Source of the DNA: Gemmata sp. | Lineage (GTDB): Bacteria > Planctomycetota > Planctomycetia > Gemmatales > Gemmataceae | NCBI GenBank assembly: GCA_022843445.1 | Contig: JALHNS010000014.1 | Location: 1-41,163, forward strand | Direction of reading: 5' to 3' | Length of the DNA: 41,163 nucleotides | Shown here: piece by piece, positions 22,825 to 38,363 of the stretch | How positions within the stretch are numbered: the stretch's first letter is position 1 | Layout: each line of letters starts with the position of its first letter | Translations under genes and position numbers: made by a program | Notes under the pieces: model-generated | Told to the model about the DNA's origin: nothing | The model's database searches: none | The model's input: only the letters and a program-made list of their open reading frames with translations

Positions 22825-26979
<4,155 letters not shown>

Positions 26980-27049
26980 GGTTCAGCTCCGGGGACGGGA
27001 TCTGCCCTCAATGCCCCGTCCGGGGGAGAAGTATCTCGCGGATTATGGA

Positions 27050-27595
27050 TTATTTGCCCAGAGCTTCGCGGAGCCAGGCCCGCGCGTACTTCCAGTTCCG
27101 ATACGCAACCGCTCGCGACACCCCCAGCGCCTCACCCGCATCCTCGACCGAGATCCCGCCGAACAGGTGCAACTGCGCGAGTTCCGCCGCGGCGGCATCT
27201 TCCGATCCGAGGTGGGTGAGTAGTTCGTCCAGCGACAAGACGAGGTCGGGGTCTTCGGCGAGGAATCCGATCTGGTCGAGCAGCTCGACCCGCACCCGCC
27301 CGCCGCCCCGCTTCTGCCGGTTCCGGTCGCGTGCGTGGTTCACCAGAATGCGCCGCATCGCTTCCGCCGCCGCCGCGAAGAAGTGCCCGCGCCCGTCGAA
27401 CTGCTGACCGCCGACGAGCCGCAGGTACGCCTCGTGAACGAGTGCGGTGGCGTCGAGGGTGTGCCCCGGGGCTTCCGCATTCATCCGTGCGGCGGCGAGC
27501 GCCCGCAACTCGTCGTACACGAGCGGCAGGAGGTCGGCGGCGGCCCGGCGGTCGCCGGCTTGCGCGGCTTCGAGGAGGCGGGTCACGTCGGACAT
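27050..27595 (-). CDS. ECF sigma factor (PF07638-type)
   Basis: I use the ATG at 27595 (MSDVTRLLEAAQAGDRRAAA), giving 181 residues; the track start at 27694 adds an unrelated tail. Region 2 is seen in 'LVYDELRALAAARM' and 'TALVHEAYLRLVGGQQFDGR', with 'HFFAAAAEAMRRILVNHARD' the hallmark of the planctomycete-rich ECF family that lacks a classical anti-sigma factor. Region 4 includes 'LHLFGGISVEDAGEALGVSR' and 'AVAYRNWKYARAWLREALG' for -35 recognition. It is immediately upstream of the large kinase gene, the common genetic arrangement for kinase-controlled ECF factors. Confidence 0.93.
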   Translation of the reverse strand: MSDVTRLLEAAQAGDRRAAADLLPLVYDELRALAAARMNAEAPGHTLDATALVHEAYLRLVGGQQFDGRGHFFAAAAEAMRRILVNHARDRNRQKRGGGRVRVELLDQIGFLAEDPDLVLSLDELLTHLGSEDAAAAELAQLHLFGGISVEDAGEALGVSRAVAYRNWKYARAWLREALGK

Positions 27596-28250: not shown

Positions 28251-28288
28251 GCGTAAAAGCGAGTCGACTCGCGGAGTGTATCTGCGGG
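28251..28288 (+). promoter_or_regulatory. ECF-type promoter block, copy 1
   Basis: A 38-base stretch starting GCGTAAAA and containing GCGGAGTGTAT is repeated without gaps at 28755-28792 with 28 of 38 positions identical. The conserved islands (GCGTAAAA, GTCG, GCGGAGTGTAT) are spaced like -35 and -10 elements: 17 bases between AAAA and GTGTAT. The -10-like GTGTAT (28276-28281) is 52 bases before the ATG at 28333. The rest of 28111-28250 shows no feature. Confidence 0.65.
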
Positions 28289-28332
28289 GCAAACTGTTAC
28301 CCGCTTCAACAACCGCTTGGGAGGGCAATCCG

Positions 28333-28677
28333 ATGAGAAAGTGGCCCGGGCCGGTGGGCGTAATGTTCCTCATGGCCGGACTGGTGGTCGCGGCCGAGGG
28401 GACGATCAGCAAGGTCGATCTGGATAAGAAAACCGTCACGATCAAGGAAGGGGACAAGGACAACGAGTACAAGTTCACCGACACGGTGAAAGTGACCGTC
28501 GCCGGCGGGAAGGCGAAGGGCGGCAAGGGGCAGGCCAAAGAGGGCACCTACGCCGACTTCGAGAAGGCGCTGAAAGTCGGCGAGAAGCTGACGTTCGAGG
28601 CGAAGGACGGCGTGCTGACCGAGGTCAAGATCACCGGGATGGGCAAGGGCAAGGGTAAAGGTAAGGCGAACGAGTGA
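28333..28677 (+). CDS. Small secreted K/G-rich protein
   Basis: The 114-residue product has a signal peptide (PVGVMFLMAGLVVAAEG) and a mature part starting 'TISKVDLDKKTVTIKEGDKD', a beta-rich pattern resembling small OB-like secreted planctomycete proteins, then lysine/glycine-rich 'AGGKAKGGKGQAKEG' and a terminal 'GMGKGKGKGKANE'. The protein at 31719 has the same plan (signal peptide, 'I.KIENGTITFVKRN', 'GKGKGKGG', beta-rich tail), so the two are likely distant paralogs. The basic Gly/Lys tracts could bind polyanions such as nucleic acid, phosphate polymers or acidic glycans. Its promoter block is shared with the following sigma gene. Confidence 0.8.
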   Translation: MRKWPGPVGVMFLMAGLVVAAEGTISKVDLDKKTVTIKEGDKDNEYKFTDTVKVTVAGGKAKGGKGQAKEGTYADFEKALKVGEKLTFEAKDGVLTEVKITGMGKGKGKGKANE

Positions 28678-28699
28678 CGTAAACCGCATCCGCCGCTGA

Positions 28700-28723
28700 A
28701 CGCCCGGCGCGAGCCGGGCGTTC
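28700..28723 (+). terminator. Hairpin terminator after the small K/G-rich gene
   Basis: AACGCCCGGC and GCCGGGCGTT form a perfect 10-bp stem with a GCGA tetraloop (GNRA type), 22 bases after the stop codon, followed by CTCGCGTTCTT. The T-run is poor but the stem is strong. It separates this gene from the sigma-factor promoter. Confidence 0.65.
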
Positions 28724-28754
28724 TCGCGTTCTTGCCCGGCCCACAGAACGAGGG

Positions 28755-28792
28755 GCGTAAAAACGTGTCGGCGTGCGGAGTGTATGGGTGGG
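28755..28792 (+). promoter_or_regulatory. ECF-type promoter block, copy 2
   Basis: Second copy of the block at 28251-28288. Its GTGTAT (28780-28785) ends only 12 bases before the ATG at 28798, so a transcript initiated 6-8 bases after it would have almost no leader. Placement directly before the sigma gene suggests positive autoregulation by that sigma factor. Confidence 0.65.
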
Positions 28793-28797
28793 GGTGA

Positions 28798-29334
28798 ATG
28801 ATGAACGAGGAGCCGGCGTCACGGCACGAGCAGTTCTTGAGGCACTACTCGGCCCACGAACCCGCGATCCGGGCGTTCGTGCGGCGTCTGGTCCCCGCGC
28901 GTACCGACGTGCCGGACGTCATGCAGGAAGTGGCCCTCGTCCTGTGGAAGAAGTTCGAGAACGTGCCCGACCCCGACGACTTTCGCCGCTGGGCGTTCGG
29001 GGTGGCAAAGTACGAAGCCTTTTCGTGGCTCCGCGATAAGCGGCGAGATCGCCTCGTGCTTGCGGAAGACGTTCTCGAACAACTCGCACAGGACGCCACG
29101 GCACTCGAACCGGTCCTCGACTCCCACCGGGTTGGGTTGGAGGCGTGTTTGGAAAAGCTCCCTGCCGACCAAAGGGCGCTCCTGCTTGCCGCCTACGAAC
29201 CGGGCGCGCGCATTCAGGACGTCGCCGAGCGCAGCCGCCGAACGGTCGGAGGCTTCTACCAGTGGCTGCACCGCGTTCGGCTGCAACTGCTCGACTGCGT
29301 GCGCCGGGGAATCGCTCTGGAAGGTGCGAAATGA
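28798..29334 (+). CDS. ECF RNA polymerase sigma factor (Rhodopirellula/Verrucomicrobium type)
   Basis: The 178-residue product has region 2 ('FLRHYSAHEPAIRAFVRRLV', 'PDVMQEVALVLWKKFENVPD', 'FRRWAFGVAKYEAFSWLRDK') and region 4 ('CLEKLPADQRALLLAAYEPG', 'VAERSRRTVGGFYQWLHRVR'). The 'W.FGVA..EA..WLRDKRRD' wording is that of the TIGR02989-like family, which is common in Planctomycetes and Verrucomicrobia. Two ATGs in a row (28798, 28801) follow a GGGGGTG; either may be used. Its stop overlaps the next start by four bases (ATGA), so it is coupled to the anti-sigma-like gene. This is a different ECF group from the one at 27050. Confidence 0.93.
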   Translation: MMNEEPASRHEQFLRHYSAHEPAIRAFVRRLVPARTDVPDVMQEVALVLWKKFENVPDPDDFRRWAFGVAKYEAFSWLRDKRRDRLVLAEDVLEQLAQDATALEPVLDSHRVGLEACLEKLPADQRALLLAAYEPGARIQDVAERSRRTVGGFYQWLHRVRLQLLDCVRRGIALEGAK

Positions 29335-30371
29335 CCGACCCGCAACACGCGATCTGGCTGGAGCGGATCGCCCGCTACATCGAAGGGACGCTCCCGGCCG
29401 AGGAGTTGAAGCCACTCGAAGAGGCATTGCGAACCGATTCGGCACTCCGGCGGGTGTACTTGGAGTACGTCAATCTCGATTCGGCCATCGCTGCGGGTGC
29501 GGCGCTGCCGGAACACGAGTTCGTGGGGTTTGATGAACAGCCCGTCGAGCGTCCTCGCGCCCAGAATCTGCCAACAGTTCGTCGCCGCTGGGCGTCGTTC
29601 GCAGTAGGCGGAATGGCCGTGGCTGCCGCCGTCCTGATCGTCGTTTTCCTCGCACCCCCACAGCAAGTGCGAGCCGATCAGACCCTCCGCGATGCCGAGC
29701 AAGCGCTCCTCCTCCCCGTGGAGCGCGGATACGTCGTCGAGGTGCGGCGCGCGACGGACGACCCGGATGACACCCTGAGCACGCGGCGCATGCGGGTCTG
29801 GACGCACGGCGACCGTTTCCGCGTCGAGGTCGATCAGGACAACGACAGGTGGTCGTGGGGCCGCGACCTCGACGGGTCGGTGTGGGTCGTCGCCACCCCG
29901 CAGCGCGGCTTGAAGATCAACCCGGACGAAATCGGCCCGGCCCTGCAACGGCTCTGCGACCGCTACGGCCTGCAACCGAAATCGGTGCTGAACGACATGC
30001 TGACGGGTGCGGACCTGAACCAGCGCCCCGGCGACCCGAACCGCAAGACCGTGATCGTTCGCGGGCAGTTCCGCACCGGGTTCCACCGCCAGTGGCTCGA
30101 ATCGACCGAGCTGGAACTGGATGCCGCGACGAAGGTGATCCAGAAGTTCACCGTGAACCGGGCGGGCCCGGGCGGCGAGCAGGAGTCGCTCACCTTCGCA
30201 CTGACCGACACACGCCCGATCGACGAATCGCTGTACCGGCTCGAAGGCAACCTGACCCCGCCGTTCGAGGTTCTCGACCGGGACTCCCGGCCGGGGCGCC
30301 GCCGCACGATCCTCGGCACCCGGCTCGGCGGCGGCAACCACCGGTGGCTCGTCACCGGCAAAAAGCCCTGA
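29331..30371 (+). CDS. Anti-sigma / FecR-like membrane protein
   Basis: The product from the ATG at 29331 is 346 residues. The cytoplasmic N-terminus ('WLERIARYIEGTLPAEELKP', 'LRRVYLEYVNLDSAIAAGAA') resembles the helical anti-sigma domain seen before FecR in planctomycetes. A single membrane segment (FAVGGMAVAAAVLIVVFLAP) follows at ~88-107. The exported part (~115-346) is beta-rich and begins 'ADQTLRDAEQALLLPVERGY', a pattern like outer-membrane lipoprotein-carrier (LolA-like) folds seen fused to such sensors. The four-base overlap with the sigma gene and topology argue that it holds the sigma factor at the membrane until an exported signal is sensed. The signal is unknown. Confidence 0.82.
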   Translation: MTDPQHAIWLERIARYIEGTLPAEELKPLEEALRTDSALRRVYLEYVNLDSAIAAGAALPEHEFVGFDEQPVERPRAQNLPTVRRRWASFAVGGMAVAAAVLIVVFLAPPQQVRADQTLRDAEQALLLPVERGYVVEVRRATDDPDDTLSTRRMRVWTHGDRFRVEVDQDNDRWSWGRDLDGSVWVVATPQRGLKINPDEIGPALQRLCDRYGLQPKSVLNDMLTGADLNQRPGDPNRKTVIVRGQFRTGFHRQWLESTELELDAATKVIQKFTVNRAGPGGEQESLTFALTDTRPIDESLYRLEGNLTPPFEVLDRDSRPGRRRTILGTRLGGGNHRWLVTGKKP

Positions 30372-30402
30372 ACAACACCGGCCGTGACCGGAGGAACGCA
30401 TC

Positions 30403-31704
30403 ATGCGGATCGGGTCCGTCTGTTTACTGGTCGGCTGTCTCTTCGCCGCGTCGGGTTCAACCGCGCGCGGGGAGGATTGGCCGCAGTTTCGTGGTCCGAG
30501 CCTGTCCGGTCGCAGCCCGGACACGACGCTGCCGACCAAATGGAGCGACACGGAGAACCTCGGCTGGAAGGCCAAACTGCCCGGCCCCGGTTCGTCCAGC
30601 CCCATCGTCGTGGGCAAGCAAGTGTTCGTGACTTGCTACTCGGGCTACGGCGCGGGCGGTTCTTCCGACGACCAGAAGAACCTGCGCCGGCACCTCGTCT
30701 GCGTGGACGCCGAGAGCGGCAAGGACCTGTGGTCGAAGTCCGTCGCCGCGGTGCTGCCGGAGGACAGCTTCCGGGGGTTCCTCGCTCAGCACGGGTACGC
30801 CAGCCACACGCCGGCCAGCGACGGCGAGCGCGTGTACTGCTTCTTCGGCAAGACCGGCGTCGTGGCGTTCGACCTCGACGGCAAACAACTCTGGCAGACA
30901 AGCGTGGGAACGGGGTCGGCCACGAGCGGTTGGGGAACCGGGGCCAGCCCCATTATTCACGGCGATCTTGTCATCGTGAATGCCAGCGCCGAGAGCGGCA
31001 CACTCCGGGCGTTGAACGCGAAGACCGGCAAAGAAGTGTGGAAAGCGGACGGGGTGAAGAACACATGGTGTACGCCGGTCGTGGTGCAGACCAAAGAAGG
31101 TAAGCCCGAACTGCTCGTCACGGTGCCGGATGAGGTGTGGGGGTTCGACCCAGCCACCGGGAAGAAGCTCTGGTGGGCGAAAGTCGGCATCGGCGAATTC
31201 CCGATCCCCGGTGTGATCGCCGAGAAGGACGTGGCGTTCGTCGCCGGGGGCCGCGGCAAGGGGAGCGGTGCGGTCGCGGCGGTGCGCGGCGGCGGTCGGG
31301 GCGACGTGACGAAATCGCACGTCGTCTGGAAGAGCAACGAGTATTCGCCCGTGCCGACGCCGGTGCTGGTCGGGGGCAAACTGTACTGCCTGAACGACTC
31401 GGGTTTCGCCTTCTGTGTCGATGCCGCGACCGGCAAGCAGGTGTACAAGGAACGGCCACTCGGCGGCGGTGGCGGCGGTAACCGCAGCACCTACGGTTCG
31501 ATGGTGGAAGCGAACGGCAAGCTCTACGCCCTCAGCCGCACGGCCGGGGCGTATGTGATTGCCTGCGGGAGCGAGTACGAACAAATCGCCCGGAACTCGT
31601 TCGCCTCGGACAAGACCGACTTCAACGGCACGCCGGCGATCAGCAACGGGCGACTGTTCCTGCGGTCCAACACCCACTTGTATTGCGTGCGGGCGAGCAA
31701 ATAA
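30403..31704 (+). CDS. Secreted PQQ-type beta-propeller protein
   Basis: The ATG at 30403 has CGGAGG upstream and starts a signal peptide (CLLVGCLFAASGSTARG); total 433 residues. The mature protein starts with the signature 'EDWPQFRGPSLSGRSPDTTL' and contains PQQ blades 'LVCVDAESGKDLWSKSVAAV', 'VVAFDLDGKQLWQTSVGTG', 'LRALNAKTGKEVWKADGVKN' and 'FCVDAATGKQVYKERPLGG'. It is homologous to the frameshifted gene at 13058. Quinoprotein alcohol dehydrogenase-type metal and PQQ ligands are not obvious, so it may bind no cofactor. It is the first structural gene after the sigma/anti-sigma pair, with short gaps through 37345 suggesting one operon. Confidence 0.92.
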   Translation: MRIGSVCLLVGCLFAASGSTARGEDWPQFRGPSLSGRSPDTTLPTKWSDTENLGWKAKLPGPGSSSPIVVGKQVFVTCYSGYGAGGSSDDQKNLRRHLVCVDAESGKDLWSKSVAAVLPEDSFRGFLAQHGYASHTPASDGERVYCFFGKTGVVAFDLDGKQLWQTSVGTGSATSGWGTGASPIIHGDLVIVNASAESGTLRALNAKTGKEVWKADGVKNTWCTPVVVQTKEGKPELLVTVPDEVWGFDPATGKKLWWAKVGIGEFPIPGVIAEKDVAFVAGGRGKGSGAVAAVRGGGRGDVTKSHVVWKSNEYSPVPTPVLVGGKLYCLNDSGFAFCVDAATGKQVYKERPLGGGGGGNRSTYGSMVEANGKLYALSRTAGAYVIACGSEYEQIARNSFASDKTDFNGTPAISNGRLFLRSNTHLYCVRASK

Positions 31705-31718
31705 CCGGAGGACAACTC

Positions 31719-32168
31719 ATGGGTCGGTTCGGGATCGCGGCGTTCGGCTTCTCCGCCGCGCTGGTTGCGGTTCTCGCGTCATCGGGTTCGGCCGACGAGT
31801 CCATCGTCACCATCCAGAAGATCGAGAACGGCACCATCACGTTCGTCAAACGCAACACCGAAGACGGGGCGAAGGGGAAAGGGAAAGGAAAGGGCGGCGC
31901 GAAAGGCGGGGCCGGGGCGGTGACGCTCCCCGTGGCATCGGACGTTCAAGTGACGACGGCCCACCACACCCGCCGCACCGGGGCGTTCCACGTCGGTACG
32001 CCGGTCGGCGGCGGGCTGAAGAACAGCGCCCTTCGCAAACTCGAACCGGGGGCAATGGCCCGCATCGTGACGGACGGGAAGCAGGTGATCGAGTTGAACA
32101 TCGTGTTTGACGACGAGGACGGCAACACCGTCGTCGCCGTGCCGCCCAAACCCGCCCCGAAGAAATAG
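31719..32168 (+). CDS. Second small secreted K/G-rich protein
   Basis: From the ATG at 31719 (GGAGG upstream, 14 bases after the previous stop) the product is 149 residues: signal peptide (GIAAFGFSAALVAVLASSGS), 'ESIVTIQKIENGTITFVKRN', a basic 'GAKGKGKGKGGAKGGAG' tract, then a beta-rich tail ('VQVTTAHHTRRTGAFHVGTP', 'IELNIVFDDEDGNTVVAVPP') and a Pro/Lys end. The plan repeats that of the protein at 28333. The paired His and the Lys/Gly tract could bind metal or polyanions, but no function is known. Confidence 0.8.
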   Translation: MGRFGIAAFGFSAALVAVLASSGSADESIVTIQKIENGTITFVKRNTEDGAKGKGKGKGGAKGGAGAVTLPVASDVQVTTAHHTRRTGAFHVGTPVGGGLKNSALRKLEPGAMARIVTDGKQVIELNIVFDDEDGNTVVAVPPKPAPKK

Positions 32169-32188
32169 GCCCGCTCGCGGAGGACACC

Positions 32189-34636
32189 ATGCGATTCCTG
32201 ATTGCCTGCTGCGGATTGCTCGCGTTCCTGTCGCCGGCGTTGGCCCAACCGGCTGGTGACGCCTTCTTCGAGGCGAAGATTCGCCCGGTGCTGGTGAAGC
32301 ACTGCTACAGTTGCCACTCGGACGAGTCCAAGAAGGCGAAGGGCGGGTTGAAGGTCGATACCCGTGCAACGCTGCTGAAAGGCGGCGACAGTGGGGCCGC
32401 CGTAGTGCCGAAGTCGGTCGAGAAGAGCCTGCTGTACAAGGCCGTCGCCTACCACGACAAGTCGATGCAGATGCCGCCGGACGGGAAACTGCCCGATTCG
32501 GTGATCGCCGACTTCAAGAAGTGGATCGAGATGGGCGCTCCCGACCCGCGCGGGGCCAAGTCCGGGGTGCCGGTTCAAGCCAAGATCGACATCGTCAAAG
32601 GGCGGGACTACTGGGCGTACCGCGCGCCCACCAAGCCCGGCCTCCCGGCGGTTCGAGATGCCAACTGGTCGCTCACCGACATCGACCGCTTCGTCCTCGC
32701 GGGATTGGAGCAGAACAAACTCAAGCCGGTGAAGGACGCCGACGCCCGCACGCTGGTCCGCCGCTTACACCTGACGCTCGTCGGCCTGCCGCCGACGCCG
32801 GAAGCCGTCGAGCTCTGGTCCGCTCGACTTGCTGCCGCCACGACCCCGAAGGCAAAGCAGGAGGTCGTGAGCACACTCGCGGACGAACTGCTCGCCTCGT
32901 CGCGGTTCGGCGAACACTGGGGTCGGCACTGGATGGACGTGGCCCGGTTCGGCGAATCGACCGGCGGGGACGTCAACAACGTCACGCCCCATGCGTGGCG
33001 CTACCGGGATTACGTCCTCGACTCGTTCAACGCCGACACGCCCTACGACCGCTTCATCCTCGAACAACTGGCCGGCGACCTGCTCCCCGCTGCGAACCCG
33101 AAGGAATTCGCCACGAACGTTGTTGCCACCGGGTTCCTTGCCACCGGCGTGAAGCTGGTCAACGAGGAGGAAGGCCGACGGTTCTTCGCCGACATGGTGG
33201 ACGAGCAGATCGACGCGACCACCCGCGTGTTCCTCGGCACCACCGTGGCGTGTGCTCGGTGCCACGATCACAAGTTCGACCCCATCCCGCAGACCGATTA
33301 CTACGCGATAGCCGGCATCTTCCGCAGCACCGAGACGCACTTCGGGCTGTTGAAGTCCCAGGCCCGGCAGGCGAACCCGCTCATCGACCTGACGGGGATG
33401 GGACTGCCCGTGGTCGGCAAGCCGATCACGAAGGAGCAACTGGCGAAGCTGAAAGACGAACGCGACAAGGCGGCGGCGCTAGTGGACGACATCTTCCGCA
33501 GGCGGCGGGCGGGCGAACGAATCGCCCAGAGCGTGTGGCTCCGTTCCCGCACCGACCGGGACCGCACGCAGTTCGCCTACCAGCAGTACGACGAGAAGGG
33601 GAACCCGCGCGTCTTCGCAATGGGCGTGCAAGACCGCGAGTTGCCGGTCGAGACGTGGCTGAACGTGCGCGGTGAGCCGGACAAGTTCGGGCCGAAGGTG
33701 CCTCGGGGCTTCGTGCAGGTCGTCGCCAAACCCGGCAAACACACTCTCCCCACCACGAAGGGGAGCGGGCGGCTCGAACTGGCAAAGTGGATGGCCAGCC
33801 CCGAGAACCCGCTCACTGCACGGGTGATGGCGAACCGTGTCTGGCACCACCTCTTCGGGAGCGGCCTGGTCCGCAGCGTCGATGACTTCGGCGTGACCGG
33901 GGAGCAGCCCTCGCACCCCGAACTCCTCGACCACCTCGCACTGCGGTTCGTGGAACACAAGTGGTCCGTCAAGGCTCTCATCCGCGAGATAGTGCTGACG
34001 CGGGCGTGGCAACTCGCCGGCGACCACGACGAGGCCAACTTCGCCACCGACCCGGACAACCGCTTCCTGTGGCGCATGAAGCCCCGACGGTTGACGGCGG
34101 AAGCGATCCGCGACTCGATGCTGGTCGTGTCCGGTCGCCTCGACGAGAAGCGCCCGCTCGGGACGTTCCTCGTCAGTGTCGGGGAAGGGACCATCGGGCG
34201 CTCGGTGTTCGAGCCTGAGATTCGCAAGATCGAGGCGGACTGCCGGTCGGTCTATCTGCCGCGCGTTCGAAACGTGCTGCCGGAAATGCTCGACCTGTTC
34301 GACGCCCCCGACGCCAGCTTGGTGATGGGCGTGCGGGAGACGACCACCAGCCCGCTGCAAGGGCTGTACCTGATGAACAGCCCGTTCGTTCGCCGTCAGG
34401 CCGAAGGGTTGGCCCGGCGCGTTCAAGAGGCGAAGGGCAACGACCCGATCGCGACCGCCCACCTGTTGGCCTACGGTCGCCCGCCGACCGACAAACAGCG
34501 AGCCACCGCGAACGACTTCATGGCGAGCTTCAAGAAGGCTGCGACCTCCGAGAAACTCGCCGACATCGACCGCCGCAGCCTGCAAGCGTACTGCCACGCG
34601 CTGCTTTGCTCGGCCGAGTTCCGCATCCTCAACTGA
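32189..34636 (+). CDS. PSCyt1-DUF1549-DUF1553 cytochrome-like protein
   Basis: The 815-residue product has a signal peptide (FLIACCGLLAFLSPALA), PSCyt1 with the haem site 'VKHCYSCHSDESKKAKGGLK' (residue ~37) and 'KSMQMPPDGKLPDSVIADFK' (~95), DUF1549/PSCyt2 from 'DIDRFVLAGLEQNKLKPVKD' to 'ACARCHDHKFDPIPQTDYYA' (second CxxCH, ~355), and DUF1553/PSD1 ('MANRVWHHLFGSGLVRSVDD') to 'AYCHALLCSAEFRIL'. GGAGG lies 9 bases before the ATG. It is followed after 21 bases by a DUF1501 gene, the same pair as at 8661-12433. Both CxxCH sites being exported makes electron transfer plausible, but the substrate is unknown. Confidence 0.94.
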   Translation: MRFLIACCGLLAFLSPALAQPAGDAFFEAKIRPVLVKHCYSCHSDESKKAKGGLKVDTRATLLKGGDSGAAVVPKSVEKSLLYKAVAYHDKSMQMPPDGKLPDSVIADFKKWIEMGAPDPRGAKSGVPVQAKIDIVKGRDYWAYRAPTKPGLPAVRDANWSLTDIDRFVLAGLEQNKLKPVKDADARTLVRRLHLTLVGLPPTPEAVELWSARLAAATTPKAKQEVVSTLADELLASSRFGEHWGRHWMDVARFGESTGGDVNNVTPHAWRYRDYVLDSFNADTPYDRFILEQLAGDLLPAANPKEFATNVVATGFLATGVKLVNEEEGRRFFADMVDEQIDATTRVFLGTTVACARCHDHKFDPIPQTDYYAIAGIFRSTETHFGLLKSQARQANPLIDLTGMGLPVVGKPITKEQLAKLKDERDKAAALVDDIFRRRRAGERIAQSVWLRSRTDRDRTQFAYQQYDEKGNPRVFAMGVQDRELPVETWLNVRGEPDKFGPKVPRGFVQVVAKPGKHTLPTTKGSGRLELAKWMASPENPLTARVMANRVWHHLFGSGLVRSVDDFGVTGEQPSHPELLDHLALRFVEHKWSVKALIREIVLTRAWQLAGDHDEANFATDPDNRFLWRMKPRRLTAEAIRDSMLVVSGRLDEKRPLGTFLVSVGEGTIGRSVFEPEIRKIEADCRSVYLPRVRNVLPEMLDLFDAPDASLVMGVRETTTSPLQGLYLMNSPFVRRQAEGLARRVQEAKGNDPIATAHLLAYGRPPTDKQRATANDFMASFKKAATSEKLADIDRRSLQAYCHALLCSAEFRILN

Positions 34637-34657
34637 CCGCCCACGGAGACACCACCC

Positions 34658-36058
34658 ATGTTGAATCTGACCCGCCGCGAGGCACTGAAAGCGGCGTCTG
34701 CCGGTTTCGGTTACCTCGCCTTCTCCGGGCTGGCGACGCTCCACGCCGAGGTGAAGAAATCCCTGCTGGCCCCCCGTACTCCGCACTGGGCGGCGAAGGC
34801 GAAGCGGGTGATCTTCCTGTGCATGCGGGGCGGCCCGTCGCACATCGACACCTTCGACTACAAGCCGCAGTTGAAGAAGGACGACGGCAAGGCGTCGAAG
34901 TACGCCGGGTCGAAACTGTTCACCTCGCCGTGGGCGTTCCAACAACGCGGCAAGAGCGGGCTGTGGATCTCCGACCTGTACCCGGAGTTGTCGAAGCACG
35001 CGGACGACCTGTGCCTGCTGCGGGGGATGCACTGCGACCAGCCGAACCATGCCCAGGCGTTCGTGCAGATGCACACCGGCAACTTCCAATTCGTCCGCCC
35101 GTCGCTCGGGGCGTGGACCCTGTACGGCCTCGGCACCGAGTCCGACAGCCTGCCGGGGTTCATCTCGATCAACCCGCCCACGAGCGTCGGCGGGGCACAG
35201 AACTACGGCAGCGCGTTCCTCCCCGCCGCGTTTCAGGGCACGCGGTTCAACATCGCCGACAGCAGCGCCCGGAACCGCCCGGTGGACCGGATGCGGCGGG
35301 GCGAGACGAACCCGCTCGGCGTCAACCATGTCCGCAACGACCAGCTTTCGCCGAACCTCCAACGGCTCGAACTCGACCTGATTCAGCAGATGAACGGCGA
35401 GGCGATCTACCGCAACGGCCCGTCGCCGCTCGTGGACGGGGCCATCGAGAGCTTCGAGTTGGCGTTCCGCATGCAAGACGCCGTGCCGAAACTGATGGAC
35501 CTGTCGAAGGAGACGAAGGAGACGCTCGACCTGTACGGCATCGGCTCGGACCTCACGGACGGGTTCGGTCGGCAGTGCCTGCTGGCCCGGCGATTCGCCG
35601 AAGCCGGGGTGCGCTTCATCGAACTCGGCCACGGCACTTGGGACCAGCACAACAACCTGAACGACGGCATGACCAAGAACGCCGGCAACACGGACAAGCC
35701 CATCGCCGGCCTACTCGCCGACCTGAAGCGCCGCGACCTGCTCAAGGACACGCTGGTGATCTGGGGCGGCGAGTTCGGCCGCACGCCGCACTCGGACAAC
35801 GGCGACGGCCGCGACCACAACCACAAGGGCTACACGCTGTGGATGGCCGGCGGCGGCGTGAAGGGCGGCGTCTCGCACGGTTCGACCGACGAGTACGGCT
35901 ACGAGGCCGTCGCCGGGAAGGTCCACATCCACGACTGGCACGCCACCATACTGCACCTGCTCGGTCTCGACCACGAGAAACTGACGTTCCGCCACGCCGG
36001 CCGCGCGATGCGACTGACCGACGTGGGAGGCACCGTCGTCAAAGACATCCTCATGTAA
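34658..36058 (+). CDS. DUF1501 family protein, Tat-exported
   Basis: The 466-residue product has a Tat leader (LTRREALKAASAGFGYLAFS), 'RVIFLCMRGGPSHIDTFDYK' near residue 55, 'WGGEFGRTPHSDNGDGRDHN' near residue 368, 'GYTLWMAGGGVKGGVSHG', and the end 'RLTDVGGTVVKDILM'. It aligns end to end with the product of 11036-12433. The acidic and His-rich 'GDGRDHNH' is conserved across the family and could bind metal, consistent with the alkaline-phosphatase-like fold. The next gene starts 63 bases later with its own GGAG. Confidence 0.94.
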   Translation: MLNLTRREALKAASAGFGYLAFSGLATLHAEVKKSLLAPRTPHWAAKAKRVIFLCMRGGPSHIDTFDYKPQLKKDDGKASKYAGSKLFTSPWAFQQRGKSGLWISDLYPELSKHADDLCLLRGMHCDQPNHAQAFVQMHTGNFQFVRPSLGAWTLYGLGTESDSLPGFISINPPTSVGGAQNYGSAFLPAAFQGTRFNIADSSARNRPVDRMRRGETNPLGVNHVRNDQLSPNLQRLELDLIQQMNGEAIYRNGPSPLVDGAIESFELAFRMQDAVPKLMDLSKETKETLDLYGIGSDLTDGFGRQCLLARRFAEAGVRFIELGHGTWDQHNNLNDGMTKNAGNTDKPIAGLLADLKRRDLLKDTLVIWGGEFGRTPHSDNGDGRDHNHKGYTLWMAGGGVKGGVSHGSTDEYGYEAVAGKVHIHDWHATILHLLGLDHEKLTFRHAGRAMRLTDVGGTVVKDILM

Positions 36059-36121
36059 CCGCACGGTGTGTTGACCGAACTTGAACCAAGAACACCAACC
36101 CAACCTTCGGAGAAGACCGCA

Positions 36122-37345
36122 ATGAGATCGCTGACCGTTGGACTGATCGCGCTCGCCCTCAGCGGGCTGTATCCGGCTACCGCTTCGGCACAGAAAGGGA
36201 AGTTCCGCGACGACGCCGAGCGGTTCGGGTGGACCGAAGACCTGCCCGCCGCGATGAAGGAGGCGAAGCGGACCGGCAAGCCCGTCATCGTGATCCTGCG
36301 GTGCATCCCCTGAGCGGACTGTCAGGACTTCTACGGGCAGGTTGTCCGATTAGAGAAGTTCAAGGATCTTGCCGACCGGTTCGTCCGCGTGCGTCTGAGC
36401 CGCGTGATCGACGTCGATATCCACCAGTTGGAGTTCGACTTCGACCTGACCATGATGACGTTCTTCCTCAGCCCCGAGGGCCAGGTCTACAGCCGGTACG
36501 GCGGTCGGGATTCCAAGGACGCGGAGAACCGGCTGTCGCTCGCCGGCTTCCGCCACACGATGGAGTCGGTGCTGGCCGAGCACGCCAAAAAAGCTCCCCG
36601 GTTCGCCGAGCGGACGGTCGAGAAGCCTCAGTACCCGCGCGACATGAACATCGTGAAGCGAGGGTGCGTCCACTGTCACAACGTGAAGGAGCAACAGGAG
36701 AGTACCCTCGCCCGACTCGGTCGGTGGGACCGCGAGCAGGTGTGGCGGTTCCCGCCCCCGGACAACGTCGGCCTGATCCCCGACGTGGATCGCGGCAACG
36801 TGGTCAAGACGGTGACGCCGGAATCACCGGCCGCCAAGGCCGGTCTGAAATCCGGGGACCAACTCCGCTCCCTCAACCGGGTGCCGATCCACTCGTTCGG
36901 CGACGCCCTTTTTGCCCTCGACCGCGCTCCAGCGAAAGGCGGCATTGACGTGGCGTGGGAGCGGGACGGCAAGCCGATGACCGCCAAACTCGAACTGAGC
37001 GAGGGCTGGAAAAAGACGGACATCACTTGGCGGGCGTCGCAGCGGCATCGCATTCCGTCCCTCAAACTGTCCGGCGACGACCTGACGGCGGACGAGAAGA
37101 AGGCCCTCGGGTTGAAGCCGGGCCAACTCGCGTTCCGCCAGCAGAACGAGGTGAGTGCGCACGCGGCCAAGGCGGGATTCAAGGCCGGCGATGTCGTCGT
37201 GGGCGTCGACGACCTCGAACCCGAGTTGACGGTGTCGAAGTTCCTGAGTCTCGTTCGTCGCCAGTACCTCGTCGGCGATCAGGTGACCGTCCACATCATC
37301 CGGGACGGCAAGCGGCTCAAGGTTCCGATGAAACTCATTCAGTAG
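36122..37345 (+). CDS. Thioredoxin-like, c-type haem, double-PDZ protein; in-frame TGA, candidate selenoprotein
   Basis: The track splits this into 36068-36313 and 36389-37345, but both are in one frame, interrupted only by TGA at 36311-36313 (codon 64). Read through, it is 407 residues: signal peptide (VGLIALALSGLYPATASAQ), a thioredoxin-like domain (~30-150) with 'KPVIVILRCIP-TGA-ADCQDFYG', a haem-c site 'KRGCVHCHNVKEQQE' (182-186), PDZ 1 (~225-295, 'SPAAKAGLKSGDQLRSLNRV') and PDZ 2 (~330-405, 'AAKAGFKAGDVVVGVDDLEP'). The TGA replaces the first cysteine of the expected CxxC, making UxxC. CGGAC (36315-36319) can pair with GTCCG (36344-36348) just downstream, as a possible SECIS stem. GGAG precedes the ATG at 36122. 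Alternative: a nonsense mutation (TGC/TGT to TGA). Confidence 0.78.
36314..36348 (+). promoter_or_regulatory. Possible SECIS-like stem-loop after the in-frame TGA
   Basis: CGGAC/GTCCG closes a stem that can extend over 11 positions per arm with two mismatches and two G-U pairs, leaving a 12-base apical loop starting with G, a feature of bacterial SECIS elements. The loop begins only 12 bases after the TGA, shorter than in the E. coli fdhF element, and competing folds exist (GGAC 36325-36328 with GTCC; CCTGA 36309-36313 with TCAGG 36322-36326). Fold not computed. Confidence 0.35.
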
Positions 37346-37473: not shown

Positions 37474-38363
37474 CGAACAGTTGGTCGAGTTGTACCTCGT
37501 GCCGATCCTCGGCGGCCTCAAACTGCATAAACTCCGACCGATGCACGTGGAGCAGTGTTACGCGACCATGCGAGACGGCACCGCCGACCGCAAGCCTGCT
37601 GGGGCCGACACCCGCAAATCCGCCGGCGGTGTGCTGTCGACCGCGCTCAAGCGGGCCGTCGAGTTGCGGCTCATCCCGTACAACCCGGCCGCCGACGTCA
37701 AGAAGCACCGTCCGAAGGCGCGCGAAATGGCGTTCATGACGCAACCGCAGGCGAAGCGGTTTCCTGGCCGCGCGGTCCAACCAGAACTACGCGCTGTTCG
37801 CGGCCGCCCTCGGCACCGGTGCGCGACAGGGTGAGTTGCTCGGTCTCACGTGGGCGGACATCGACTTCGACCGCGGGGTGATGGAGGTCCGGCGGGCACT
37901 CGCGCAGGTGAATGGGAGGTTCACGCTCAAGGAGCCGAAGACGAAGGCCAGCCGCGCCGTGACGCTACCGGCGTTCGTCCGCGACGCGCTCCGCCTTCAC
38001 CGCGAGCAGACCCTCAAAGGCGCGCCGATCGCCGGGCCCGTGTTCTGCACTCGGACGAGGGGCTATCTCGATCGGAAGAACGTGTTGCGGGCGTTTCGGA
38101 CGATTGTAGCCCGCGCCAACACCGCGGAGCGGGAACGGGCCGAACGGACGCAGACGCAACCCGACATGATTCCCGAGTTGCTGCGGTTCCACGACCTGCG
38201 GCACACGCACGCGACGGGGCTGATCACGGCCGGCAACTCGATCAAGGCCGTGTCGCGTCGGCTCGGTCACTGCAACATTGCCATCACCCTGAGCGTCTAT
38301 GCCCACCTGCTGCCGGACGACGACGCGAAACTCGCGGGACAAGCCGACGCGCTATTCGGCTGA
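37472..38363 (+). pseudogene. Tyrosine recombinase/integrase, N-truncated and frameshifted
   Basis: The first frame (from ~37472) reads QLVELYLVPILGGLKLHKLR and 'VELRLIPYNPAADVKKHRPK', i.e. the end of the core-binding domain; the first ~60-100 residues are missing. At 37760-37762 a TTT where TT is expected shifts the frame; the second frame continues FLAARSNQNYALFAAALGTG then ARQGELLGLTWADIDFDRGV. The catalytic set is complete: Arg in 'GARQGELLG', Lys in 'EPKTKASRAVTLP', 'HDLRHTHATGL', His in 'RLGHCNIAITLS' and Tyr in 'VYAHLLPDD'. The gene points at tRNA-Val 98 bases downstream, the usual place for a tRNA-targeting element. Without an N-terminus it is presumably inactive. Confidence 0.85.

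Follow-up and report, generated by a model that had tools for sequence, protein, structure and literature searches.

Planctomycete genomes each encode dozens of ECF sigma factors, and they also hold large families of functionally uncharacterised PSCyt/PSD1 proteins. A 41,163-nt stretch of Gemmata sp. DNA (the window; its genome is called G000 below) contains genes of both kinds, and within it are two similar 38-base blocks, one before a small gene and the other before an ECF sigma gene. Are these blocks promoters read by the adjacent sigma factor, and which genes would they serve? Comparison of sequences indicates that the sigma factor very probably activates its own gene together with an adjacent cluster encoding secreted and cytochrome-like proteins.

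The paired blocks and the genes around them

The blocks (28251-28288 and 28755-28792) are 504 bp apart and align without gaps, as the original prediction made from this DNA had it, with identity at 30 of 38 positions and not the 28 counted there. The similarity stops sharply at both edges and the flanks are not similar. Both blocks have the layout CGTAAAA-N14-GGAGTGTAT (predicted promoters P1 and P2, Table 1), and GCGTAAAA and GCGGAGTGTAT are each found in both. There was no further copy of GGAGTGTAT or GCGGAGTGTAT in the window, and one extra copy of GCGTAAAA (minus strand, 38553). The conserved parts had been described as spaced like -35 and -10 elements, 17-18 bases apart. Both parts are present, and the spacing is fixed: 17 from GCGTAAAA to GTGTAT, and 14 from CGTAAAA to GGAG at P1, P2 and every relative counted. 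The placement of one block before the small K/G-rich gene and the other before the sigma gene was borne out, with 51 nt from the end of the -10 to the ATG of the small gene and 12-15 nt to that of the sigma gene. The hairpin between the small gene and P2 (-27.3 kcal/mol, z -4.3) also folds in two relatives, G008 and G035, and probably marks the end of the small-gene transcript.

In five first-order Markov randomisations of the window, no pair of sequences within 600 bases was as similar as the two blocks. The real window contained 115 such pairs, many of them presumably from repetitive coding sequence. The similarity of the blocks alone is therefore weak evidence, and specificity across the genome (below) is the stronger test.

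Table 1. Features of the locus, in window coordinates.
Feature	Position	Strand	Details
Cassette, ~9.1 kb	28252..37344	+	86-91% nucleotide identity to G008, G035, G151
Promoter P1 (predicted)	28252..28281	+	-35 CGTAAAA 28252-28258; N14; -10 region GGAGTGTAT 28273-28281; for small K/G-rich gene
Small secreted K/G-rich protein, 114 aa	28333..28677	+	predicted CusF-like OB-fold barrel
Terminator-like hairpin	28698..28723	+	11-bp stem, 4-nt loop; between small gene and P2
Promoter P2 (predicted)	28756..28785	+	-35 CGTAAAA 28756-28762; N14; -10 region GGAGTGTAT 28777-28785; for sigma gene
ECF sigma factor, 178 aa	28798..29334	+	TIGR02989 (Sig-70_gvs1), 159.1 bits, curated cut-off 124.55
Putative membrane anti-sigma factor	29331..30371	+	~80 aa cytoplasmic, one predicted membrane helix, ~230 aa outer part
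PQQ-repeat beta-propeller protein	30403..31704	+	PF13360
Second small secreted K/G-rich protein	31719..32168	+	no Pfam family
PSCyt1-PSCyt2-PSD1 (planctomycete cytochrome / DUF1549 / DUF1553) protein	32189..34636	+	ortholog with second promoter in G056, G072
DUF1501 protein	34658..36058	+	domain match
PDZ-domain protein	36389..37345	+	last intact cassette gene

The sigma factor has only the sigma2 (Sigma70_r2, PF04542, 17-83) and sigma4 (Sigma70_r4_2, PF08281, 114-164) domains. The start of the next gene overlaps the sigma stop, and this membrane-protein gene stays beside sigma in relatives. From its position and architecture, we infer that its product is an anti-sigma factor. Searches of Pfam and PDB profiles gave no match to the outer part, and we do not claim a LolA/RseB-like fold for it, an idea suggested by its sequence (poor AlphaFold model, pLDDT 37; profile searches empty). 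The outer domain (29658-30368) represents an unnamed family with a match in 45 of 249 genomes of the class; some copies, across the class, adjoin TIGR02989 sigma or PSCyt genes. In relatives, the same anti-sigma N-terminal part is joined to FecR or Laminin_G_3 domains. Because these domains take the place of the outer part in other clade members, one sigma module seems to have been fitted with different sensors. Gaps of 17-31 nt separate the genes from anti-sigma through PQQ, K/G and PSCyt/PSD1 to DUF1501, and the PDZ gene is next. On the other side of the blocks, the minus strand of 22825-27595 encodes an unrelated second ECF factor (TIGR02999) and then a large, repeat-containing Ser/Thr protein kinase.

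The small K/G-rich protein matched no Pfam family over the cut-off; CusF_Ec was below it. Its structural model (pLDDT 69.6, moderate) matched CusF in Foldseek (E=4e-4, TM 0.47/0.69). The mature part has no His, Cys or Trp, and its sole Met is in the C-terminal tail. We rejected a metal-binding (CusF metallochaperone) role because the His/Met/Trp ligands are absent. The gene has unusually few fourfold-site differences between G000 and near relatives (0.06-0.11, versus 0.19-0.25 for sigma), and the small protein is 89% identical to that of G285, compared with only 62% for sigma. Across the genus, members of the K/G-rich family are common where this sigma factor and its motif are absent.

Distribution of the motif within the genome and among relatives

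The pattern CGTAAAA-N13..21-GTGTA matched exactly twice in 7,388,887 bases, at P1 and P2 (reversed control, 0), and the two copies of CGTAAAA-N14-GGAGTGTA in the 7.39-Mb genome are both at this locus. A genome scan had been proposed as a check on the original prediction. Equal frequency of the motif inside genes and upstream of them would have spoken against a promoter; the motif is not frequent inside genes, and the two exact sites in the genome are both upstream. There was no third site above background: with up to 3 mismatches in 15, the whole genome gave 29 matches and the control 32. The two next-best matches (2 mismatches each) sit within long open frames, and no plasmid copies were found.

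Other K/G-rich genes had been suggested as further targets. Two more small K/G-rich secreted proteins (43-51% identity) are encoded at G000:C15:22352-22678 and G000:C60:16210-16521, and neither gene has the motif. With no third site over background and with K/G-rich paralogs elsewhere motif-free, we rejected a genome-wide scattered regulon. The predicted regulon is one locus with two sites, the sigma operon and the small gene. To this extent, and not genome-wide, the autoregulated regulon of the original prediction stands.

Starting from DNA only, a scan with CGTAAAA-N14-GSAGWRTW across 398 genomes of the class found 41 sites, clearly above the reversed control. The 13 sites with exactly GGAGTGTA as their 3' half all directly precede either an ortholog of the sigma gene or the small gene. 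The sigma orthologs behind these sites are 57-93% identical to the product of 28798-29334, and the genomes (G000, G008, G035, G151, G285, G068, G107, G084, G193 and G086) come from four families. Sites with looser 3' halves are elsewhere, except for a second site in G285, before its small gene.

Starting in reverse, from protein only, we inspected up to 170 nt upstream of 28 sigma genes in 27 genomes. The pattern [CT]GT[AT]AA[AG]-N14-G[CG]A[GA] was found in the sense orientation upstream of 22 of the 28, compared with a mean of 0.04 expected from dinucleotide shuffles and 2 in antisense; the relatives are non-independent, as four of the nine closest have one cassette in common. Twenty-six more distant TIGR02989-like paralogs (~27-39% identity) had best matches with 4-7 mismatches of 15, which is background, and there was no such site at the other TIGR02989 genes of G000, G056, G084, G394 and G081 that could be read. 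By the pattern used, the motif was missing from 4 of the 26 sigma genes of the FYQW type (G360, G061, G077 and G314; the type refers to the recognition helix, below). A near form, TGTTAAC-N14-GGAAACTG, was noticed in G077 after the pattern search.

P1 occupies the same position in G008 and G035, and has 2 mismatches in G151 although the sigma gene there is intact. In G068 (locus L082), a stop interrupts sigma near codon 52 and the remaining cassette is lost; P2 is intact, and the P1 equivalent, CGTGAATGCGGTGAAACTGGCGGAGTGCA, has 3 mismatches (a single case of decay).

In G008, G035, G285 and unlinked lineages, the spacer and flanks of the motif have diverged and the two halves are kept. This pattern argues against a recent local duplication of a promoter or repeat with no present regulatory meaning. 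Such an event could explain two copies only 504 bp apart that agree at 30 of 38 positions, but the 38 bases also stand out against non-similar flanks, and we regard it as exceedingly improbable.

Gene order, placement and the recognition helix

We found that the motif accompanies its target genes where gene order has changed. The order in G285 is sigma, anti-sigma, site, small gene, PQQ, K/G, PSCyt, DUF1501, and despite this altered order the second site is still 52 nt before the small gene. G056 and G072 (sigma ~50% identical) have a sister motif, CGTTAAA-N14-GGAAATA, before sigma. Each has a single additional copy, located 44-52 nt ahead of the PSCyt gene, and no others in the genome. All exact matches to this sister motif (9/9, in 9 genomes) were at sigma/PSCyt-type loci, and controls gave 0. 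At the G086 locus (L036/L081), a sulfatase gene has a divergent copy, CGTAAAA-N14-GGAGTAAG, in front of it; at L037, a divergent TGTAAAA-N14-GGAGATAC lies ahead of a gene weakly similar to PSCyt. These layouts point to a conserved plan in which sigma has a promoter and the target gene set has another.

The distance from the end of the -10 to the ATG of the small gene is 50-52 nt in G000, G008, G035 and G285. For the sigma gene it is 12-15 nt in Gemmataceae-type loci and only 4-5 nt in G107, G084, G193 and G086; the sigma start codon is 4-5 nt past the -10 at loci L078, L079, L080 and L081. Leaderless sigma mRNAs are therefore predicted in these four genomes. In G000, a sigma mRNA started from P2 would have a leader of ~6-9 nt, and with such a predicted leader the start-codon use of this sigma gene is uncertain.

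The motif-bearing clade has the domain-4 recognition helix FYQWLHR or FYQWLYR (RTVGGFYQWLHRVR in the sigma factor of 28798-29334), and the helix covaries with the -35. Among motif-bearing FYQWLHR genes, 11 of 13 have A as the fourth -35 base, and 8 of 9 FYQWLYR genes have T there (Fisher p 0.0015; the sequences are related, so this is not an independent-sample probability). In G394 and G081, which form a long branch beside the GGAGTGTA group, the helix LYKxLQR replaces FYQWL[HY]R. Their sites read TGTCCA-N15-GGAGTGT[AT], with the -10 kept, the -35 replaced and the spacing unchanged relative to CGTAAAA-N14; the exact TGTCCA variant pattern occurs once in each of the two genomes. A swap of the -35 together with the helix, with the -10 kept, is as expected if domain 4 reads CGTAAAA and domain 2 reads GGAGTGTA.

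Paired sites conserved at both promoters would also suit a common regulator: the blocks would then be an operator bound by a repressor or an activator, and a different sigma factor would transcribe the genes. However, the halves are a fixed 14 nt apart with a strong sense bias (22 sites versus 2 antisense), which is promoter geometry. In relatives, the 3' half ends 4-5 nt before the ATG; this fits a -10 element with a leaderless start, and an operator has no reason for such placement. Furthermore, the -35 half varies with the sigma recognition helix and no other regulator gene travels with the sites. An operator is thus a quite improbable reading of the blocks.

We think it highly likely that P1 and P2 are promoters of one new specificity for the ECF sigma factor of 28798-29334, and that this factor autoregulates and drives the neighbouring gene set. 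Searches in both directions across 398 genomes, the changes in gene order and the covariation with domain 4 support the original proposal that the blocks are the target of the adjacent sigma factor. The sigma gene has its promoter type in common with the target gene, as would be the case in positive autoregulation.

We also favour, by a small margin, a broader reading: that this entire clade of planctomycete ECF factors has a modular, non-canonical code. The -35 (CGTAAAA, CGTTAAA or TGTCCA) would track the domain-4 helix, and the -10 (GGAGTGTA, GGAAATA or GSAGATTT) would vary separately. Each member would serve one adjacent PSCyt/PSD1 or sulfatase set, and the sigma mRNA would be leaderless in several members.

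The cassette, its predicted regulation and known systems

The cassette (Table 1) is common to G000, G008, G035 and G151 and spans three genera, with two of the three relatives in other genera. Its similarity limits are 28245/28252 and 37344/37478, and the G151 copy is without the PQQ gene. The left edge falls on the -35 of P1, and the genomes are unrelated upstream of it. Sigma fourfold-site divergence between genera is no larger than within the genus, which suggests that the cassette spread horizontally. Directly at the right edge (37480-38363) is a decayed, apparently frameshifted tyrosine recombinase gene (PF00589), and at this end a secreted-protein gene is cut past its signal peptide. No inverted or direct repeats were found within either cassette end, each inspected separately.

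The left edge bears on whether another ECF factor of the genome could read the motif. There are many such factors, and the TIGR02999 factor (27050-27595) is only 0.7 kb from P1. However, the similarity of the four cassettes starts at P1 and leaves this gene out, and across four families the motif goes with the 28798 ortholog. Reading by a different ECF factor is highly unlikely.

Sequence comparison gave the identity and spacing of the motif, its specificity and clade restriction, its placement, and its co-movement with targets. With the sigma factor of 28798-29334 as the reader, regulation might proceed as follows. A putative envelope signal would relieve the membrane anti-sigma factor and free sigma. 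Freed sigma, presumably with no other sigma factor taking part, would direct RNA polymerase to P2, in front of a putative operon of sigma, anti-sigma and the contiguous PQQ, K/G, PSCyt/PSD1 and DUF1501 genes. It would also fire P1, and the resulting short RNA for the secreted K/G-rich protein would probably stop at the hairpin. Sigma would thereby amplify itself while the secreted and cytochrome-like set is produced.

Autoregulated ECF factors with a membrane anti-sigma factor are a standard kind, and autoregulation is predicted for ~55% of all ECF factors (PMC8103513). The locus resembles the RpoE/RseA type in its two-domain sigma factor, the overlapping downstream gene for a one-helix membrane protein, and a sigma-operon promoter common to targets. 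It differs in that the anti-sigma outer part is of no known family, the regulon is one locus, and CGTAAAA and GGAGTGTA are without AAC at -35 and CGT at -10. These two elements are typical and were the original criterion for ECF promoters, since dropped (PMC8103513). In sequence family, the sigma factor is like TIGR02989 Sig-70_gvs1 of Rhodopirellula and Verrucomicrobium (159 bits, cut-off 125). Within TIGR02989, only one clade (FYQWL[HY]R with its LYKxLQR offshoot) has this promoter, and other paralogs are without it.

An ECF gene also adjoins a PSCyt2/PSD1 gene in R. baltica, where RB10049 was proposed as regulator of RB10051 (PSD1/PSCyt2; Studholme et al. 2004, cited in PMC2754498). As cited there, that link is one of gene neighbourhood; here, a common promoter motif backs the link. 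In the literature examined, we found no earlier report of a planctomycete ECF promoter motif, and this one may have been predicted computationally before. The promoter code without AAC/CGT, the predicted leaderless sigma mRNAs and the link to PSCyt/PSD1 genes appear to be new. Beyond known systems, this analysis adds the promoter sequence with its variants across the clade, and a regulon confined to one locus.

The literature that we examined gave no promoter for planctomycete ECF factors, and the link between sigma and cytochrome genes rested on gene neighbourhood. Our analysis gives a specific, testable promoter code and predicts a regulon of one locus per genome. The natural pairs of -35 and recognition-helix variants are useful for decoding sigma-promoter recognition and for orthogonal promoters. 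The code would also tell when the PSCyt/PSD1 gene set is expressed.
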